64,000 nucleotides of DNA from Planctomycetota bacterium (lineage in GTDB: Bacteria > Planctomycetota > Phycisphaerae > Phycisphaerales > SM1A02): the NCBI GenBank assembly GCA_022574595.1, contig JACZRS010000003.1, forward strand, positions 62,001 through 126,000, given 5' to 3'. A program made the position numbers and the translations under genes. This document shows, in pieces, positions 10,732-19,067 of the stretch (its first letter is position 1; each line of letters opens with the position of its first letter). A model generated the notes under the pieces. It saw only the letters and a list, made by a program, of their open reading frames with translations. It ran no database searches and had not been told where the DNA came from.

Positions 10732-11004
10732 ATGGGCAACGAAAGTGAGAAACATGGTGGTGGGTCCGATCACGGCTTGAAGCGCATTCTTGGGCCGGTG
10801 GCCGCACGGTCCGTGCGCGTTCCGGGTTACCCGGTTGTTCCACTCTTATTTGTGTTGGGCGAACTCTGTATTCTCGCGGGCGCGTTGTTCTATTCCGAGC
10901 AGCGCATCACAGTGTTGATCGGCATCGGGTGGATCCTTGGGGCGACTCTGCTATATTTCCTCTTTTTCTATGGCGGACTGTCTAAAAACTCGGTCGATCT
11001 GTAA
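10732..11004 (+). pseudogene. Remnant of an APC-family amino acid permease (C-terminal part)
   Basis: A 90-residue ORF whose residues of about 28-85 match the C-terminal end of APC-superfamily permeases: RVPGYPVVPLLFVLGELCIL, then two hydrophobic helices. Full-length members have about 450 residues and 12 helices, so some 80% is missing. The first 25 residues (MGNESEKHGGGSDHG...) look unrelated to the family, a stop codon lies just upstream in frame, and no ribosome-binding site is seen. I read it as a decayed fragment. A short, expressed membrane protein cannot be excluded. Confidence 0.5.
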
Positions 11005-11322
11005 CTTGTTGCTTATGCTTATAGGAGGTTTGGCAAAGCGTGATTTGGAACTATTGCGGCAGATTCTGGGCCGTTATATCGGTGCAATCGCCAACATAAA
11101 CGTGTTTCTATGCCACTATTGTTGGTTGCGAGTAAGCATAAGATAAATTTGCAATAAGCTAGTAGCTTAAATTAGTTCTATTCAAGCTGCTAGCGGCCGA
11201 GTTCTGGTATAGCAGGGCTTAGTGAGTTCGACTGAACACTGAAACCAAACAGGAACGCCTGAACCAAAGTGATGAACAACAAAAAGGTAGTGTTACAGAT
11301 CAGACGCCGAGAATCTGAGATC

Positions 11323-12027
11323 ATGGATCAGCCTGATCTGGATCGAGATCGGCTCGAATGCGCGCTCGGTGGTTTGTCGCGCCTCAACAGGTGGAGCGGT
11401 AGCGCAGGAAATCTATGGCCGGTGCTGCGCGATCTGGCAAAGCAGTTGCAAGGAACAGATCAACCAAACCGCTCTAAACCAGTCACCTTGCGCATTCTCG
11501 ACCTTGCTACGGGTGCCGGCGACAATCCGATCCGACTGGCTCTCAAGGCACGCCAAGAGAATCTGCCGATGCAATTCGCAGGTTGCGATGTAAATCCGCA
11601 TTCCATTGAGTTTGCAAGTCGCCGGGCGCAAGAAGCCGGTGCAGATATTGATTGGTTTGTTGGCGACGTTCTTGCAGATGATCTCCCGGCCGGTTATGAC
11701 GTGGTAATGTGTTCGCTGTATATGCATCATCTCAGCAACGATCAGGCGGCTTATTTGCTTGGGCAAATGTGGCAAGCGGCCAGTCGGACAGTAATGGTGT
11801 GTGATCTGGTTCGATCTCGTTTCGGTTTGTGGCTGGCAATAGCCGCGAGCCGGATCCTAACCCGCTCCGAAGTGGTTCAGACTGACGGACCGATTTCTGT
11901 CAGGGCAGCGCATACAATTCACGAATTCTCTAATATCGCCAAGCAGGCAGGATTGTTGGAGTATAGCTTGCGGAAGCGGTGGCCGGCGAGATTTTTATTT
12001 ACTGCACACAAAGATCCTTCCCCATGA
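11323..12027 (+). CDS. SAM-dependent methyltransferase of the type III PKS cluster
   Basis: A class I methyltransferase of 234 residues from the ATG at 11323; an upstream ATG at 11269 would add 18 residues of low-complexity basic sequence (MMNNKKVVLQ). The SAM-binding motif I is LRILDLATGAGDN, followed by an acidic end of strand 2 (AGCDVNPHS), motif II/III (YDVVMCSLYMHHL) and a post-II block (RTVMVCDLVRS). It is UbiE-like in layout. Its stop overlaps the next gene by 4 bases (ATGA), so it is co-translated with the FAD oxidoreductase and then the PKS. It probably methylates the PKS product or its quinone form. Substrate unproven. Confidence 0.85.
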   Translation: MDQPDLDRDRLECALGGLSRLNRWSGSAGNLWPVLRDLAKQLQGTDQPNRSKPVTLRILDLATGAGDNPIRLALKARQENLPMQFAGCDVNPHSIEFASRRAQEAGADIDWFVGDVLADDLPAGYDVVMCSLYMHHLSNDQAAYLLGQMWQAASRTVMVCDLVRSRFGLWLAIAASRILTRSEVVQTDGPISVRAAHTIHEFSNIAKQAGLLEYSLRKRWPARFLFTAHKDPSP

Positions 12028-13319
12028 TCACACCTCTTCATCATGGCGATTCGAATTTTAATGCTGGGCTGTTGACAGCGCACAAACTGCAGCCGATCAA
12101 TACGACCATTACGCTAAGTGATGCAAATCGGATATGGGATGTGATCGTGGTAGGTGCAGGGCCGGGTGGCTCGGTCGCCGCTCGGCAATTGGCGCTGCTC
12201 GGTTCATCGGTACTACTGGTAGATCGTGCATCATTTCCTCGATCTAAAGTGTGCGGTTCGTGTCTCAACGGCAATGCATTGGCAACGCTTGATTCACTTG
12301 GACTAGGCCATCTCATCGCAGCAAATGGGGCTGTGCCATTACGCAAATTTCAATTGTCAGTGCGGAAGCGAACAGCATCGTTGCAAATACCGACCGGCGT
12401 TGCATTATCAAGGATTCGCCTTGACGTAGCATTGGTGAACGCGGCGATCGATGCCGGCGCGCAGTTTCTGCCAGAAACTAACATTGTTGTTGAGCAAAAC
12501 CTTACGCGAAATAAGAAATATCGCTATGTGACAGCAAGATGCGGCAGTGGACAATCGCTACTCAAGGCACGCATCGTTGTTGCAGCAGACGGTTTGGGGG
12601 CGCGCCGAGTTGATCCCAAAGATCCGACACGCTCCCAGATTATCGATCGGCATTCGCGCGTTGGCGCTGGCGTGATGTTGGAAAAAATACATGTCCCGGA
12701 TTGGTGCAAGCCTGGTGTTGTCTTCATGTGCTGTGGCAAGGGTGGGTACGTCGGCCTTGTAGTTCTCGAAGACGGACGACTCGACGTTGCAGCAGCACTA
12801 GATCCGATGTCGCTTCTGTCGCTTGAGACCGAAAAGAATCAATCGCGTCCAGGCATCCTGGCCACAAGTATCATCGTTGAATCCGGATTGCCGCGAATTG
12901 ATAATCTTGTTTATGCACCTTGGCGGGGAACTACTCAACTCACACGCCGGCCTAAACAGGTTGCTGATCACCGTATGTTCGTAATTGGCGATGCAGCAGG
13001 TTATGTCGAACCCTTCACTGGCGAGGGAATAGCCTGGGCGCTTGCAACCGGAGCAGCGGTAGCGCCGCTTGCACATAAAGCTTCTCAGCAGTGGCAACCC
13101 GCATTTGTCGATTATTGGTGCAAATCTCACGCTGGTCTGATAGGCAGGCGGCAACGAATCTGTCGTTTGATGGGGCAGCTACTGCGCCACCCAGGTCTTG
13201 TTGGATTGGCTGTATCAGCCATAAACATCGCACCTGCAATTGCGCGGCCAATATTCAATCAACTAAATGCTACCACACTGGATTGCACAACAAATCGACG
13301 CCTGCCGGAGTTAGCATGA
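12024..13319 (+). CDS. FAD-dependent oxidoreductase, geranylgeranyl-reductase-like
   Basis: About 431 residues from the ATG at 12024, which overlaps the methyltransferase stop (ATGA); a start at 11979 is also in frame but would read through the upstream gene. The N-terminal Rossmann motif is VVGAGPGGSVAARQL (Gly44-Gly49 region), with KVCGSCLNG (the flavin-reductase loop) near residue 75, and the second FAD motif FVIGDAAGYVEPFTGEGI near residue 327. It is a soluble group A-type monooxygenase/reductase. Type III PKS clusters often carry such an enzyme to hydroxylate or oxidise the polyketide phenol to a quinone, which is the inferred role here. Confidence 0.86.
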   Translation: MITPLHHGDSNFNAGLLTAHKLQPINTTITLSDANRIWDVIVVGAGPGGSVAARQLALLGSSVLLVDRASFPRSKVCGSCLNGNALATLDSLGLGHLIAANGAVPLRKFQLSVRKRTASLQIPTGVALSRIRLDVALVNAAIDAGAQFLPETNIVVEQNLTRNKKYRYVTARCGSGQSLLKARIVVAADGLGARRVDPKDPTRSQIIDRHSRVGAGVMLEKIHVPDWCKPGVVFMCCGKGGYVGLVVLEDGRLDVAAALDPMSLLSLETEKNQSRPGILATSIIVESGLPRIDNLVYAPWRGTTQLTRRPKQVADHRMFVIGDAAGYVEPFTGEGIAWALATGAAVAPLAHKASQQWQPAFVDYWCKSHAGLIGRRQRICRLMGQLLRHPGLVGLAVSAINIAPAIARPIFNQLNATTLDCTTNRRLPELA

Positions 13320-13341
13320 CCAACCCAGATTGGAACGCAAC

Positions 13342-14556
13342 ATGAGTTTTGTCATCGATACAATCGCAACTGCGGTGCCTGAAATTGCCATGACTCAATC
13401 GCAGCTGGCGCAACATGCCGCAGCGTTTGCAAACGGCGTTGCTAAGAGCAATCACGCCGCACGGCTTGAACGTATCTTTACACATGCCGGTGTCGTTAAG
13501 CGACACCTGATTATCGCTGAAAACGTGCTAGAACCTGCCCAAGTAGTATCTGCAGTCATCGCTGTTGGAGGCGAAAGTGGCGCGGATGTCGAATTCTCAG
13601 CTCACATCAACCCTCAGATATCGTTCTATCCCGCGCGGTTAAACGAGAACGATTACGGACCCACGACCCATTCAAGAATGCAGCGATACAAAACCGAAGC
13701 GCTCAACCTCGCAAGTTGTGCGGTCAAGCGCGCTTTCGACGAGTCAAATGTTAGACCAGACGATATCACACAATTGATCACCGTATCGTGCACAGGCTTT
13801 GCTGCACCGGGTGTAGACGTTGGTTTGATAGAACGGTTTGGCTTGCTACCCACCGTGCAGCGCACTAATATTGGATTCATGGGCTGCCACGGTGCGATTA
13901 ACGCGCTGCATGTCGCCAATGCATTTGCATCTGCCGAACCGAAGTCACGCATTCTTATCTGCTGCGTGGAATTGTGCAGCCTACACATGCAGTACGGCCC
14001 GGAGACGGACAAACTGATTGCCAACGCACTCTTTTCCGACGGTGCCGCTGCGGTAATCGGTCATGGAAACGATTCCGCTCGCAATCAGAGATCAAGTTGG
14101 CATGTTGTCGCGTCAGGCTCGTGTCTGATTCCCGATTCACGAGATGACATGACATGGTCTATCGGCGATCACGGATATGAAATGAAGCTTTCTCCGCGGG
14201 TACCACACTTGATCGGTAAACACCTTGGACCATGGCTGGTAGACTGGCTTGATGCCCAAGGGTTGTCGATCGATGATATCGGTGCCTGGGCGGTTCATCC
14301 CGGTGGACCGAAAGTTCTTGACGCCGTAGCCGATGCACTTGATCTTCCCGACAAGTCGCTCCAACACTCCCGAGCCGTACTGGCCGAATACGGTAACATG
14401 TCGTCTGCCACGGTGCTCTTTATTCTTGATTCGCTTTGCAAATCACGCGTTGGTACAATTAAGTGCGCAAACTCTTCGCCCATCTCTCATCCATCGCCGT
14501 GCATTATGCTCGCCTTTGGCCCCGGCTTGGTCGTCGAAGCGGCGCTCCTAAAATGA
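13342..14556 (+). CDS. Type III polyketide synthase
   Basis: 404 residues from the ATG at 13342, 22 bases after the oxidoreductase stop (an in-frame start at 13330 is less likely). It belongs to the chalcone/stilbene synthase family. The catalytic triad is visible: Cys150 in VSCTGFAAPG, His319 in WAVHPGGPK, and Asn352 in EYGNMSSATV, with His-Asn spacing of 33 as in plant CHS. The C-terminal loop GFGPGL is present as AFGPGLVVEA. The enzyme condenses malonyl-CoA onto an acyl-CoA starter to make pyrones or resorcinols. An insert at about residues 62-90, rich in Ala/Val/Gly, makes the N-terminal half longer than usual. Product unknown. Confidence 0.95.
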   Translation: MSFVIDTIATAVPEIAMTQSQLAQHAAAFANGVAKSNHAARLERIFTHAGVVKRHLIIAENVLEPAQVVSAVIAVGGESGADVEFSAHINPQISFYPARLNENDYGPTTHSRMQRYKTEALNLASCAVKRAFDESNVRPDDITQLITVSCTGFAAPGVDVGLIERFGLLPTVQRTNIGFMGCHGAINALHVANAFASAEPKSRILICCVELCSLHMQYGPETDKLIANALFSDGAAAVIGHGNDSARNQRSSWHVVASGSCLIPDSRDDMTWSIGDHGYEMKLSPRVPHLIGKHLGPWLVDWLDAQGLSIDDIGAWAVHPGGPKVLDAVADALDLPDKSLQHSRAVLAEYGNMSSATVLFILDSLCKSRVGTIKCANSSPISHPSPCIMLAFGPGLVVEAALLK

Positions 14557-14696: not shown

Positions 14697-15869
14697 ATGA
14701 GCAATCGAGTATTGATAATCGTTCTAACCGTGGTGTGTGGCTTAACTTCTCTTGCCATAGGTCAGTCTCGTGGAGTTTTGGGTCGAGAAGCACCTTCGTG
14801 GCGTGTTGATGAGTGGTTTCAGCTTCCTGAGGGTATGGAAACGCTGGACGTTGTGGATTACCGCGGCAAGGTGATCTACTTCTATGGCTTCCAGTCGTGG
14901 TGTCCGGGGTGCCACTCACATGGTTTCCCCACACTCGGGGAACTGATACGCCGATTTGAAGGTACGAAAGACGTGGCATTTGTGGCAGTGCAGACGACCT
15001 TCGAAGGCTTCAATACCAACACAGCTCCCAAGGCGCTCGTAACTGCAAAGCGATATGGCCTGAAGATCCCAATCGGTCATTCTGGAAGCGATAATCGCCG
15101 TTCGCGCATAATGATTGATTACCGCACTGGTGGCACGCCCTGGACCATCATTATAGATCGCAAGGGTGTTGTGCGCTTCAATAACTTTCGCATATCGGCT
15201 GATGCCGGCGAGCACATGATCAAACAGCTACTCAAGGAACCGGCGCCTACTGCGACGCAAATCGTTACGCTTCCAACTGCGTGCGGCGGCCAGGATCGTA
15301 TCGGGAAGCGTTTTCCAAAGATCCCATTCAGCCGCTGGATTAAAGCGGATGCGGCTGTCAATGATGGTAGCGAGACCCCTGGGTTGCCTGATGATGCTGC
15401 CCCAAAGAAACAAATTGAAAATATACCTAGCCCCAGGATCACACTCTATCGTTGGTGGATCGATGGGTGTCCGTACTGCAATGCGTCAATGCCTGCAATG
15501 GAGACCTTGCGGAAGAAGTACACCGATGACGGTCTGCGCGTAGTTGGTGTGTATCACCCCAAGCCACCGCGGGCCGTAGATGATCAGGTAATTCGTGCCG
15601 CTGCAGCCGACTACGGTTTTCACGGTGATATTGCAGTGGACGAGGACTGGTCGGTGCTGCGCGCTGCATATTTGCGCTGGGGTAAGCGCAAGGCCACGAG
15701 CGTTAGCATTCTGGTCGATAAACAAGGCATCATCCGTTTCGTGCACCCGGGCCCGGCTGTATTCCCGTCATCGAAAGCGGCTAATGCGCAAGAGAACCAA
15801 GACTACACATTACTCGAAAACGCGATTCGGCAATTGCTCAAGCTAGAAGATCGCGAGTCTAAGCAATGA
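14697..15869 (+). CDS. Exported tandem thioredoxin-like (TlpA-type) protein
   Basis: A 390-residue protein with a signal peptide (about residues 1-22, LTSLAIGQ) and two complete TlpA/ResA-like thioredoxin folds. Domain 1 (about 30-180) has the redox motif WCPGC (Cys69, Cys72) and the cis-Pro region GGTPWTIIID. Domain 2 (about 245-385) has GCPYC (Cys258, Cys261) and ATSVSILVDKQG. Both CxxC pairs are intact. It lies 140 bases after the PKS and may be an independent unit. It probably reduces disulfides or haem-lyase substrates in the periplasm, which would fit the many CxxCH proteins encoded further on, but this link is inference. Confidence 0.87.
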   Translation: MSNRVLIIVLTVVCGLTSLAIGQSRGVLGREAPSWRVDEWFQLPEGMETLDVVDYRGKVIYFYGFQSWCPGCHSHGFPTLGELIRRFEGTKDVAFVAVQTTFEGFNTNTAPKALVTAKRYGLKIPIGHSGSDNRRSRIMIDYRTGGTPWTIIIDRKGVVRFNNFRISADAGEHMIKQLLKEPAPTATQIVTLPTACGGQDRIGKRFPKIPFSRWIKADAAVNDGSETPGLPDDAAPKKQIENIPSPRITLYRWWIDGCPYCNASMPAMETLRKKYTDDGLRVVGVYHPKPPRAVDDQVIRAAAADYGFHGDIAVDEDWSVLRAAYLRWGKRKATSVSILVDKQGIIRFVHPGPAVFPSSKAANAQENQDYTLLENAIRQLLKLEDRESKQ

Positions 15870-16025: not shown

Positions 16026-19000
16026 TCAATCATTTTTCTCTTGAGCAAAATATGCATGAGATGAATCGCCTGACGCTAACAGATAGGCGAGCAGATCAAG
16101 AACCTCGTTTGAGTTGAGTGGATTCAGCAGGCTGGGCATCATTGGCGAAACATCTGAAAGACGCTGAGAGATGATGCGCTTGCGAGGTAGCTTCACTGTT
16201 TTATTCGGCTCAAGCAGGTTGGGCATGATTGTGTATTGGTCATCATTGATATCCACGACTATTCCTAGTACTAGCTGGTTGTCATCGAGTACGAATTCGA
16301 GTTGAACATACTGGTCGGAGATTAGCCGACTTGGTTCGACTGTCGATTCAATCAAGTCGCGCAAGGTATAGTGAGTTACAAGGGCTGTGAGATCAGGTCC
16401 ACCCATCTTACCGGTTCCTGCGAAGCGATGGCAGTTGATGCAATTGGCTGCGGCATACATTCGTTTGCCATTGGCAAAGTCGCGATTGGTAAAGCCTTTT
16501 TGTGATAACGCTAGAACTTCCTCGGTAGTCCAGGCTCGGCCGGGGCCTTGAGGTAATTCAACGTCGATGGGTGAGGCGTCCTGCGTTGTTGATCCGATTA
16601 GCGCAAACCGCTCACGTTCTTGTTCGGGAATAGCCTCAAGTGCGTCAGATCGTATGCGCGCTAGAAACCCCGCAAGACTCTCACCGCCGTGTGTTCGGTT
16701 CGCGGCTATGAACCAGTTGAAATAGCGCTCACGCAGTTCGCTCGTCCAACCTTGTTGAGCGTTTCTAAGTGATAACGCATAGTGAATCTGCTGTCGCTGA
16801 GGTATAGCAGCAATCATCTCCCTAATGATCGGGCCGAACTCATCGTTACGTGATAGGAGCGATGGATCGATGAATGGCTGTTCATCTGAGTCAGCTCGTT
16901 CCATCAATGGAATTGTCCGCGCCACCACAATTGGTGATTTTAGATAAACCAGCAAGTCGCAGAGTTCTCGATCAATGAGATTGTCATCTGATGGATACAA
17001 GTCCTCAAAAATACGACGGACTTTTTGTGCTGTTGTTTCAGTCGGTTCGCCAAGTCTGATGAAACACAGGGCCCAACAGCGCAGTAAGTCCAATTGTTCA
17101 CTGCGCTGAAGCTCATACCAGTTTATTGCAGATAATGCTTCAATGACACGGTCTTGTTCTCGCAGATTCCCACAGCGCGTGAGTGCGATCATTGCTGTTA
17201 GTTTTGCTGTATTATTCTTTTCACTAAAAGCGCGATCAATCCATCGTTCAATCAGTTGATGCTCTAGAGCAATGCGGGCGGAATATCGTAGTGTTCGATC
17301 ATCGCTATCTAGGAACGGCCAGAGGGTGTCGATCGCCGACGCCGGAGTCTGTGGACTGTGAAATGCTTCGAGTTTACGCCGTTCTTTACGATTACTATCA
17401 TTGGCAAGTGATTTCGTGAGGTTCTCTTCGGATTCTAATTCACCTTGGTAGTACACTCGATAAAGTGCGGAAGGCGTACCACGCCCGCCGACTACAAAAT
17501 ACATGGCGCCGTCAAGTGGATTAATCACGCAGTCGGTAAGGGGAAGTGGACGTCCCGTAAGGAATGTCTCTTTGGTTGCACGATAGGATGAGCCATCCGG
17601 TTCGAGAAAAACCGCATGAATCGTGCCGAATGTCCAGTCGAGAATATAAAGCGCATCACGATAACGCTGAGGGAATCGAGCGCCATAGCCAAACGTCATA
17701 CCCGTCGGTGAACCTGGGCCTATGTCTAGAACGGCTGGCAGACTATCTGGGTAATGCTCCGGCCACTTGCCTGTACCTGAGCGCCAACCGAAATCTGCTC
17801 CGCTTACTACATGGTTTAAACGCGTTGGACGATACCATGGCGCACCTATATCCCATTCCATATCAGCATCATATGTGAATAGTTCACCATGGGCATTAAA
17901 TGCCAGGTCGTATGGGTTACGAAAACCGATGGCAAGCAAATCCCAGCTTGTCCCGTTGCGATCAGTTCGGCAAATCCAACCACCTGGTGCAAGGATTCCG
18001 ACAGCGTGTCCGCGCGGATCCCAAAGTCGCTTTAACAAATGATCTTCGCCCCAATGGCGCGGGACTGTAGATCGCTGCGGATCAGGTATTGGGGTGTGAT
18101 TACCTCCGACGATATAAAGCATACCATCGGGGCCTAATGTAATGCTGTGTGGACCATGTTCACCGATTGCTGGCATAGCGCGGAGACGATTGGATTGGTC
18201 GTATTGATCGTCGCCGGTAGTGTCGCGCAGCAAATAGAGGCCAGCTCCATCGGCACGGTCTTGTGAAACCATAACGTACAGATCATCATCAACACAGAGC
18301 AAACCCTGCGCGGCTCCTATAGGTGAATCTAAAGCTTCAACGATTGTGTTTGATGTGGTTTGGCCGAGTGGCGCTGGAGTGATGCGATACAAACCTTTGG
18401 ATTGAGCGCTTGCGATTAGTCGTCCTTTAGCATCTACAGTAAGGCTGACCCATGAACCGTGACGGCGCGGCACTGTGTATATTAAATCAACAATAAAACC
18501 TTGCGGGGCCGTGATATTGCGCTCAATCTCCTCAGTCACAAAACTGGTAATTTGTGACCAAGGCGCAGAACCTAGTGTACTAAGTTCAGTTGCTGATCGT
18601 TGTGATGCAAAGTCAATGTTGTTCGAGACAAGCCAATTTTCATTGGTGACGACTTGCTGTATAGTGCCGTCGGAGTTCTCGATATTCAATAAGGCTACGA
18701 AACCGGCTGGGCCCGTTTGATTCTTTGCGTGAACTATAAAGGATGTCTCACCAACATCGAAAAACGTAGTGATATCCAGTTCAACCGGTACTTCCCATTG
18801 GTTTGAAAAGGCAACTTGTTGATCGCCGATGAATATGGTCGCTTGGTTATCGCAAGTAAAAATCAGCGTTACTTTCCTGGGAGGGGTATCAAATGAGAGA
18901 ATGGTCTTGAAAAACGCTTCTTCATTTGGTGCAGCACTATTGGATGACCATATCCACCTAGGCGTAGTATCCATCTGGCCGGCAAAGGCCGTTGAGCCGG

Positions 19001-19067
19001 AAATGGTCCAACCTATTACGGCCCCAAACACAACACGCAATAAATTGCAATACTTTTGATACGCCAT
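16026..19067 (-). CDS. PVC-type haem-binding CxxCH protein with membrane-bound-dehydrogenase-like propeller
   Basis: A 1013-residue exported protein. A signal peptide (about 1-30, STAFAGQ) is followed by a galactose-binding-like beta domain (about 35-190), a sorbosone/glucose-dehydrogenase-like beta-propeller with GPHSITLGPDGMLYIVGGNH and GWICRTDRNGTSWDL (about 195-550), a HEAT-like helical region (about 570-830), and a C-terminal cytochrome c with NCINCHRF (Cys876, Cys879, His880), whose distal ligand may be a Met in MGGPDL or near SLLNPL. AAGG lies before the ATG. It stands alone on the minus strand, diverging from the PmoA-like gene. It probably oxidises a sugar in the periplasm and passes electrons to the haem. 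Substrate unknown. Confidence 0.88.
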   Translation of the reverse strand: MAYQKYCNLLRVVFGAVIGWTISGSTAFAGQMDTTPRWIWSSNSAAPNEEAFFKTILSFDTPPRKVTLIFTCDNQATIFIGDQQVAFSNQWEVPVELDITTFFDVGETSFIVHAKNQTGPAGFVALLNIENSDGTIQQVVTNENWLVSNNIDFASQRSATELSTLGSAPWSQITSFVTEEIERNITAPQGFIVDLIYTVPRRHGSWVSLTVDAKGRLIASAQSKGLYRITPAPLGQTTSNTIVEALDSPIGAAQGLLCVDDDLYVMVSQDRADGAGLYLLRDTTGDDQYDQSNRLRAMPAIGEHGPHSITLGPDGMLYIVGGNHTPIPDPQRSTVPRHWGEDHLLKRLWDPRGHAVGILAPGGWICRTDRNGTSWDLLAIGFRNPYDLAFNAHGELFTYDADMEWDIGAPWYRPTRLNHVVSGADFGWRSGTGKWPEHYPDSLPAVLDIGPGSPTGMTFGYGARFPQRYRDALYILDWTFGTIHAVFLEPDGSSYRATKETFLTGRPLPLTDCVINPLDGAMYFVVGGRGTPSALYRVYYQGELESEENLTKSLANDSNRKERRKLEAFHSPQTPASAIDTLWPFLDSDDRTLRYSARIALEHQLIERWIDRAFSEKNNTAKLTAMIALTRCGNLREQDRVIEALSAINWYELQRSEQLDLLRCWALCFIRLGEPTETTAQKVRRIFEDLYPSDDNLIDRELCDLLVYLKSPIVVARTIPLMERADSDEQPFIDPSLLSRNDEFGPIIREMIAAIPQRQQIHYALSLRNAQQGWTSELRERYFNWFIAANRTHGGESLAGFLARIRSDALEAIPEQERERFALIGSTTQDASPIDVELPQGPGRAWTTEEVLALSQKGFTNRDFANGKRMYAAANCINCHRFAGTGKMGGPDLTALVTHYTLRDLIESTVEPSRLISDQYVQLEFVLDDNQLVLGIVVDINDDQYTIMPNLLEPNKTVKLPRKRIISQRLSDVSPMMPSLLNPLNSNEVLDLLAYLLASGDSSHAYFAQEKND

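Follow-up and report, generated by a model that had tools for sequence, protein, structure and literature searches.

A survey of type III polyketide synthases (PKSs) in 131 planctomycete genomes, all from described type strains, reported 96 such genes, 58 of which are the last gene of a methyltransferase-oxidoreductase-PKS operon (PMC10896814, 2024). According to the sections of that paper covered here, expression in C. glutamicum of the PKS from G. maris, R. baltica or S. maiorica yields pentadecyl- and/or heptadecylresorcinols (C15/C17), and one further methyl group, probably carbon-bound, appears when the methyltransferase and oxidoreductase of G. maris are co-expressed; the authors leave the role of the oxidoreductase open. 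Six planctomycete PKSs were tested in all, and the two without product are described in these sections as coming from outside such operons. In the survey, type III PKS genes are less numerous in Phycisphaerae. The authors link the planctomycete operon to hidABC, the cyanobacterial hierridin cluster; hierridin B, the product of this homologous hid cluster, carries an extra ring oxygen (PMC10896814), and hierridin C is chlorinated by an enzyme described as unknown (PMC8086630). The planctomycete alkylresorcinol result is restated in a further paper (PMC12078418).

We analysed a 64,000-nucleotide stretch (the window) of a Phycisphaerae genome that carries a methyltransferase gene, a FAD-dependent oxidoreductase gene and a type III PKS gene side by side. 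We conclude, with a probability of about 0.85, that the trio forms a hidABC-type operon for alkylresorcinol biosynthesis, as reported across Planctomycetota. The operon type is already published, and the locus is an ordinary, diverged member of it.

The three-gene locus

The three genes are adjacent, co-directional ORFs with open frames (Table 1). Their tight packing, which the earlier note had described as a 4-base overlap followed by a 22-base gap, is confirmed in the sequence and is consistent with a single transcript for all three. The terminator scan listed no terminator-like site in the 22-base gap. Across the region, terminator-like sites were at chance level (4 found, 4.2 expected in shuffles), as were the counts of the promoter scan. 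An in-frame GTG at 11269, upstream of the ATG at 11323, would lengthen the methyltransferase ORF; we preferred the ATG because M1-D2 is kept in all 66 aligned methyltransferase rows.

Table 1. Features of the three-gene locus, in coordinates of the window.
Feature	Coordinates	Strand	Basis
SAM-dependent methyltransferase, HidA-like position, 234 aa	11323..12027	+	Methyltransf_25, operon alignment
FAD-dependent oxidoreductase, geranylgeranyl-reductase/aromatic-hydroxylase superfamily, HidB-like position, 431 aa	12024..13319	+	FAD_binding_3, operon alignment
Type III polyketide synthase, HidC-like position, 404 aa	13342..14556	+	PF00195, PF02797, triad, AlphaFold, Foldseek
ATGA, methyltransferase stop overlapping oxidoreductase start	12024..12027	+	sequence
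22-base gap, oxidoreductase stop to PKS start	13320..13341	+	sequence
Long variable loop of the PKS, codons for residues 55-107 (between Arg54 and Thr108)	13504..13662	+	alignment

None of the 139 PKS loci compared contains a homologue of either flanking ORF (10732-11004 and 14697-15869), and therefore the conserved unit is the three genes. We accordingly rejected a larger cluster that would take in the small ORF (10732) or the redoxin gene (14697), neither of which has a homologue near any relative. The downstream ORF encodes a two-domain redoxin protein; beyond it, on the minus strand at 16026-19067, lies a gene whose 1013-aa product contains a cytochrome c domain.

The methyltransferase matches Methyltransf_25 in Pfam with 45.9 bits against a curated cut-off of 27 (E 9.8e-12), and the NCBIfam model PRK06202 with E 9.1e-53, below that model's cut-off. 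Its counterparts in 65 other operons with this gene order are 32-48% identical to it, and Asp2, His135, His136, Asp161, Arg164 and Arg223 are conserved in all 66 rows. A comparison with solved structures gave no match at E <= 0.001.

The FAD oxidoreductase matches FAD_binding_3 (Pfam; 59.4 bits against a curated cut-off of 22, E 4.7e-16) and is 26-43% identical to the operon proteins at the same position. Its GxGxxG motif (Gly44, 46, 49) is present in all 65 operon rows, and Gly322 and Asp323 are each present in 64 of the 65. Narrower names for either enzyme were set aside, the curated models matching below their cut-offs only.

Within the operon reading, the FAD protein might be a double-bond reductase of the alkyl chain, similar to geranylgeranyl reductases, or a halogenase rather than a ring hydroxylase. 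Its best curated NCBIfam model is the geranylgeranyl reductase superfamily (GG-red-SF, E 6.4e-33, below cut-off), a digeranylgeranylglycerophospholipid reductase structure matches residues 37-355, halogenases are among the solved-structure matches over the N-terminal 65 or so residues, and the chlorine of hierridin C calls for some enzyme. These matches, however, are at superfamily level only, and the extra ring oxygen of hierridin B speaks for hydroxylation. Tryptophan halogenases carry the motif WxWxIP, which was not seen when the translation of the FAD protein was read by eye. We regard a reductase or halogenase as possible and ring hydroxylation as the better assignment.

Gene order and phylogeny among relatives

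PKS matches at E <= 1e-10 were found in 37 of 61 genomes (the window's own and 60 kin), and a sample of 298 genomes from the class gave 68 with a match at E <= 1e-20, in part of which gene order was checked. Such PKSs are thus not rare in the class. In a scan of named genomes, we kept the best 80 of 148 confirmed relatives. The window PKS is 40-49% identical to the 30 relatives, drawn from the 80 named loci, that were used in the alignment for its structure model, and about 50% identical at most to any relative found (50% to the closest row of the tree described below).

The order methyltransferase, FAD enzyme, PKS, all on the PKS strand, occurs in 51 of the 118 loci fetched by PKS similarity, and in 46 of these 51 the gaps between aligned parts are below 400 bases. 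The remaining loci comprise 34 with the PKS only, 16 FAD-PKS, 11 PKS-methyltransferase, 4 PKS-methyltransferase-FAD and 2 with odd orders. Because the genes were recognised by BLAST similarity to the three proteins of the window, these counts would overlook a methyltransferase unrelated to the window's. Another 21 loci, mostly picked from best hits, gave 17 with the operon order (2 duplicating loci among the 118) and 4 that start with the PKS. Eight of the 17 belong to genomes sampled from the phylum of one that is labelled Candidatus Melainabacteria. We took these eight genomes to be cyanobacteria because photosystem II proteins are present in all of them (10 of the 13 genomes tested); within this cyanobacterial sampling, the 8 best-scoring genomes with photosystem II all show the operon order. 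One locus (L087:4755-7760) shows a rearranged form of the operon, with the PKS gene on the opposite strand to the FAD and methyltransferase genes, tail to tail.

We then placed the PKS in a tree of 137 rows, the window and 136 from the 139 loci, after three PKSs identical to other rows had been dropped. The tree was built by a quick search with SH-aLRT support only, and it includes part of the 68 class genomes with a match. The eight cyanobacterial genomes stood in for the published HidC, G. maris and R. baltica sequences because these could not be placed by name, not being among the best 80 of the 148 relatives. The window PKS pairs with that of another genome of the same order (L196; SH-aLRT 95), and the pair falls in a 43-row group with all eight cyanobacterial operon PKSs (SH-aLRT 87). 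This group lies inside an 83-row group (SH-aLRT 93) of 66 operon, 15 FAD-PKS and 2 PKS-only loci. Support at these deep forks, 87-93, is moderate. The phylogeny, which the earlier note had proposed as a check, places the PKS within the methyltransferase-FAD-PKS clade.

Four operon-type PKSs (L073, L081, L084 and L089) are scattered among planctomycete rows and come from metagenome-assembled genomes labelled Acidobacteriota, Acidimicrobiia, Melainabacteria and Gammaproteobacteria; their placement may reflect either transfer or mis-binning. Elsewhere in the tree, a clade of 12 FAD-PKS loci, 11 of them from the window's family, is without the variable loop discussed below and without a matching methyltransferase. 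At 10 of the 12 loci (L060:4352-8038, and L055, L057, L059, L061-L064, L066 and L067), a VitK2_biosynth-like gene (PF02621) lies on the PKS strand, no more than about 1.5 kb behind the PKS, as identified by Pfam in L060 and L061 and by BLAST to those two in the others. PF02621 is a family of the futalosine menaquinone pathway. Each of the 16 genomes searched, among them that of the window, has matches to it, and for 14 of them two are listed; neither match in the window genome is on the PKS contig. The PKS and the menaquinone gene of this clade could be either functionally linked or merely neighbours.

The polyketide synthase and its predicted fold

The PKS matches both chalcone/stilbene synthase domains above the curated Pfam cut-off of 27 (Chal_sti_synt_N, PF00195, 85.8 bits; Chal_sti_synt_C, PF02797, 92.8 bits) and is the only PF00195 match at E <= 0.001 in the 4.09 Mb genome. 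Cys182, His319 and Asn352 are each invariant in the 137 aligned PKSs. The catalytic triad had been proposed as Cys150-His319-Asn352: the histidine and asparagine hold, whereas at position 150 only 113 of the 137 sequences have Cys, the other 24 having Ser. We rejected Cys150, which lies within an SCTGF motif, in favour of the invariant Cys182 within GFMGCHG. In the alignments to solved structures, opposite Cys182, the PDB sequence u65489 (4jao) has Cys and its variant u65491 (4jat, 4jd3) has Ser, a pair that we take to be the wild type and an active-site mutant. The residues thus point to Cys182 as the nucleophile of a Cys182-His319-Asn352 triad. The residue that follows it is His (GFMGCH) in 63 of the 66 operon PKSs, against 8 of 71 others, and this His may serve as a handy marker of the operon group.

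The AlphaFold model of the PKS, built with 31 sequences, has a mean pLDDT of 89.7 and a pTM of 0.90. In this model Cys182 sits at the start of helix 181-198, and the top Foldseek matches are the type III PKSs 4b0n, 7d41, 4jap and 1ted. The alignment, the model and the fold search thus agree on a Cys-His-Asn triad in a thiolase-type fold. The protein could in principle be a FabH-like or inactive member of that fold, a refuting case named in the earlier note, and the cluster would then make no polyketide. FabH-type NCBIfam models do match, weakly (E 1.7e-13 and weaker), but far below their cut-offs (TIGR00747, 43.7 bits against 292.1; NF006829, 50.3 against 249). Together with the intact triad, the two chalcone/stilbene synthase domains, the open frames of all three genes and listed fold matches that are type III PKSs wherever the label tells, this makes a FabH-like or inactive protein highly improbable, and the assignment to type III PKSs stands. 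The model for DpgA, the 3,5-dihydroxyphenylacetyl-CoA synthase, scores 174.8 bits against a cut-off of 425.

A second alternative concerns the ring that is formed. The PKS could make long-chain alpha-pyrones, or a mixture of pyrones and resorcinols, with the methyltransferase acting as an O-methyltransferase, as in alkylpyrone clusters of other bacteria. Among solved structures, the best sequence match is Pks11 of M. tuberculosis, named an alpha-pyrone synthase (E 2.6e-50), and the fold search also ranks Pks11 and Pks18 near the top. Solved alkylpyrone synthases match the window PKS as well as any other structure does, and since the closest structures include them, the fold does not decide the ring type. 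The window PKS groups, however, with the enzymes of methyltransferase-FAD-PKS loci, whose tested planctomycete members gave resorcinols in the part of the published work considered here (PMC10896814). On this evidence, we consider a pyrone-forming enzyme improbable and retain the resorcinol assignment.

The remaining feature of the PKS is a loop between Arg54 and Thr108, which at 53 residues is the longest of the 137 aligned; in the 65 other methyltransferase-FAD-PKS rows its median length is 27 residues (range 11-51). Ten operon PKSs, including four from one genus of the window's order, have loops of 44-51 residues. Over residues 61-90 AlphaFold confidence is low, with block means of 73, 65 and 64. 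The earlier note had seen an unusual insert at about residues 62-90: its length is indeed unusual, but we rejected a new structural element because loop length varies continuously among the aligned relatives, the insert being part of a family-wide loop of variable length.

Proposed product and comparison with known systems

The analysis establishes for this locus the three genes with their order and families, the catalytic residues and the predicted fold of the PKS; how long the starter is, how the chain cyclises, where methylation occurs and what the FAD enzyme does are proposed here by analogy with characterised relatives. A long-chain fatty acyl group, probably C16-C18, would be loaded from CoA or ACP onto Cys182, and the PKS would extend it with three malonyl-CoA. 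C2-C7 aldol condensation of the resulting tetraketide with loss of CO2 would give a 5-alkylresorcinol. The methyltransferase may then methylate a ring carbon or the hydroxyls, and the FAD enzyme would most likely hydroxylate the ring. The end product would be a methylated alkyl-hydroquinone or alkyl-resorcinol lipid.

Two observations bear on how far this analogy carries. PKS loci outside the operon occur in planctomycetes too, so homology alone is no guarantee of the product, and the distance of the window PKS from every relative found counts against the alkylresorcinol reading. It is conceivable, and in our view unlikely, that this divergent Phycisphaerae lineage with the longest loop makes a lipid chemically different from those tested, for example one with another starter length taken directly from an acyl carrier, or a methylated alkylquinone in the membrane.

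The earlier note's interpretation is partly supported. Its compact cluster for a modified type III polyketide is of the right class, and its list of pyrones, resorcinols or quinones includes the resorcinols; its remark that no product is known holds for the window genome but not for the operon type, for which alkylresorcinols were published in 2024 (PMC10896814).

The window locus alone does not settle what these lipids or the FAD enzyme do; its contribution is to add a diverged Phycisphaerae genome to those in which the lipid-phenol operon published for planctomycetes and cyanobacteria occurs. With the hid-type operons it shares the gene order, homology at each position and a PKS that groups with planctomycete and cyanobacterial operon PKSs. 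One of the 17 further loci with the operon order is that of Paludisphaera borealis (NZ_CP019083.1; L180), annotated as methyltransferase, NAD(P)/FAD-dependent oxidoreductase and type III PKS. Its genes overlap by 4 bases at each of the two junctions, and its proteins are 44%, 45% and 50% identical to those of the window; unlike the window locus, it is plasmid-borne, a location that would ease horizontal transfer. This plasmid operon (NZ_CP019083.1:82183-93115) adjoins two-component signalling genes.

The hidABC hierridin cluster of picocyanobacteria, reportedly described by Costa et al. in 2019, has the order of the window genes and homologues of all three proteins. As judged from the eight photosystem-bearing genomes, and not from the published HidABC sequences, best BLAST segments are 37-41% identical for the methyltransferase, 37-39% for the FAD enzyme and 39-49% for the PKS. 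Another close counterpart is the planctomycete alkylresorcinol operon of Gimesia maris and Rhodopirellula baltica (Milke et al., 2024; PMC10896814), which in the sections covered here shares with the window the gene order, the PKS in last position, the planctomycete host and the PF00195 and PF02797 domains of the PKS, and from which the window locus differs in its diverged PKS and longer variable loop.
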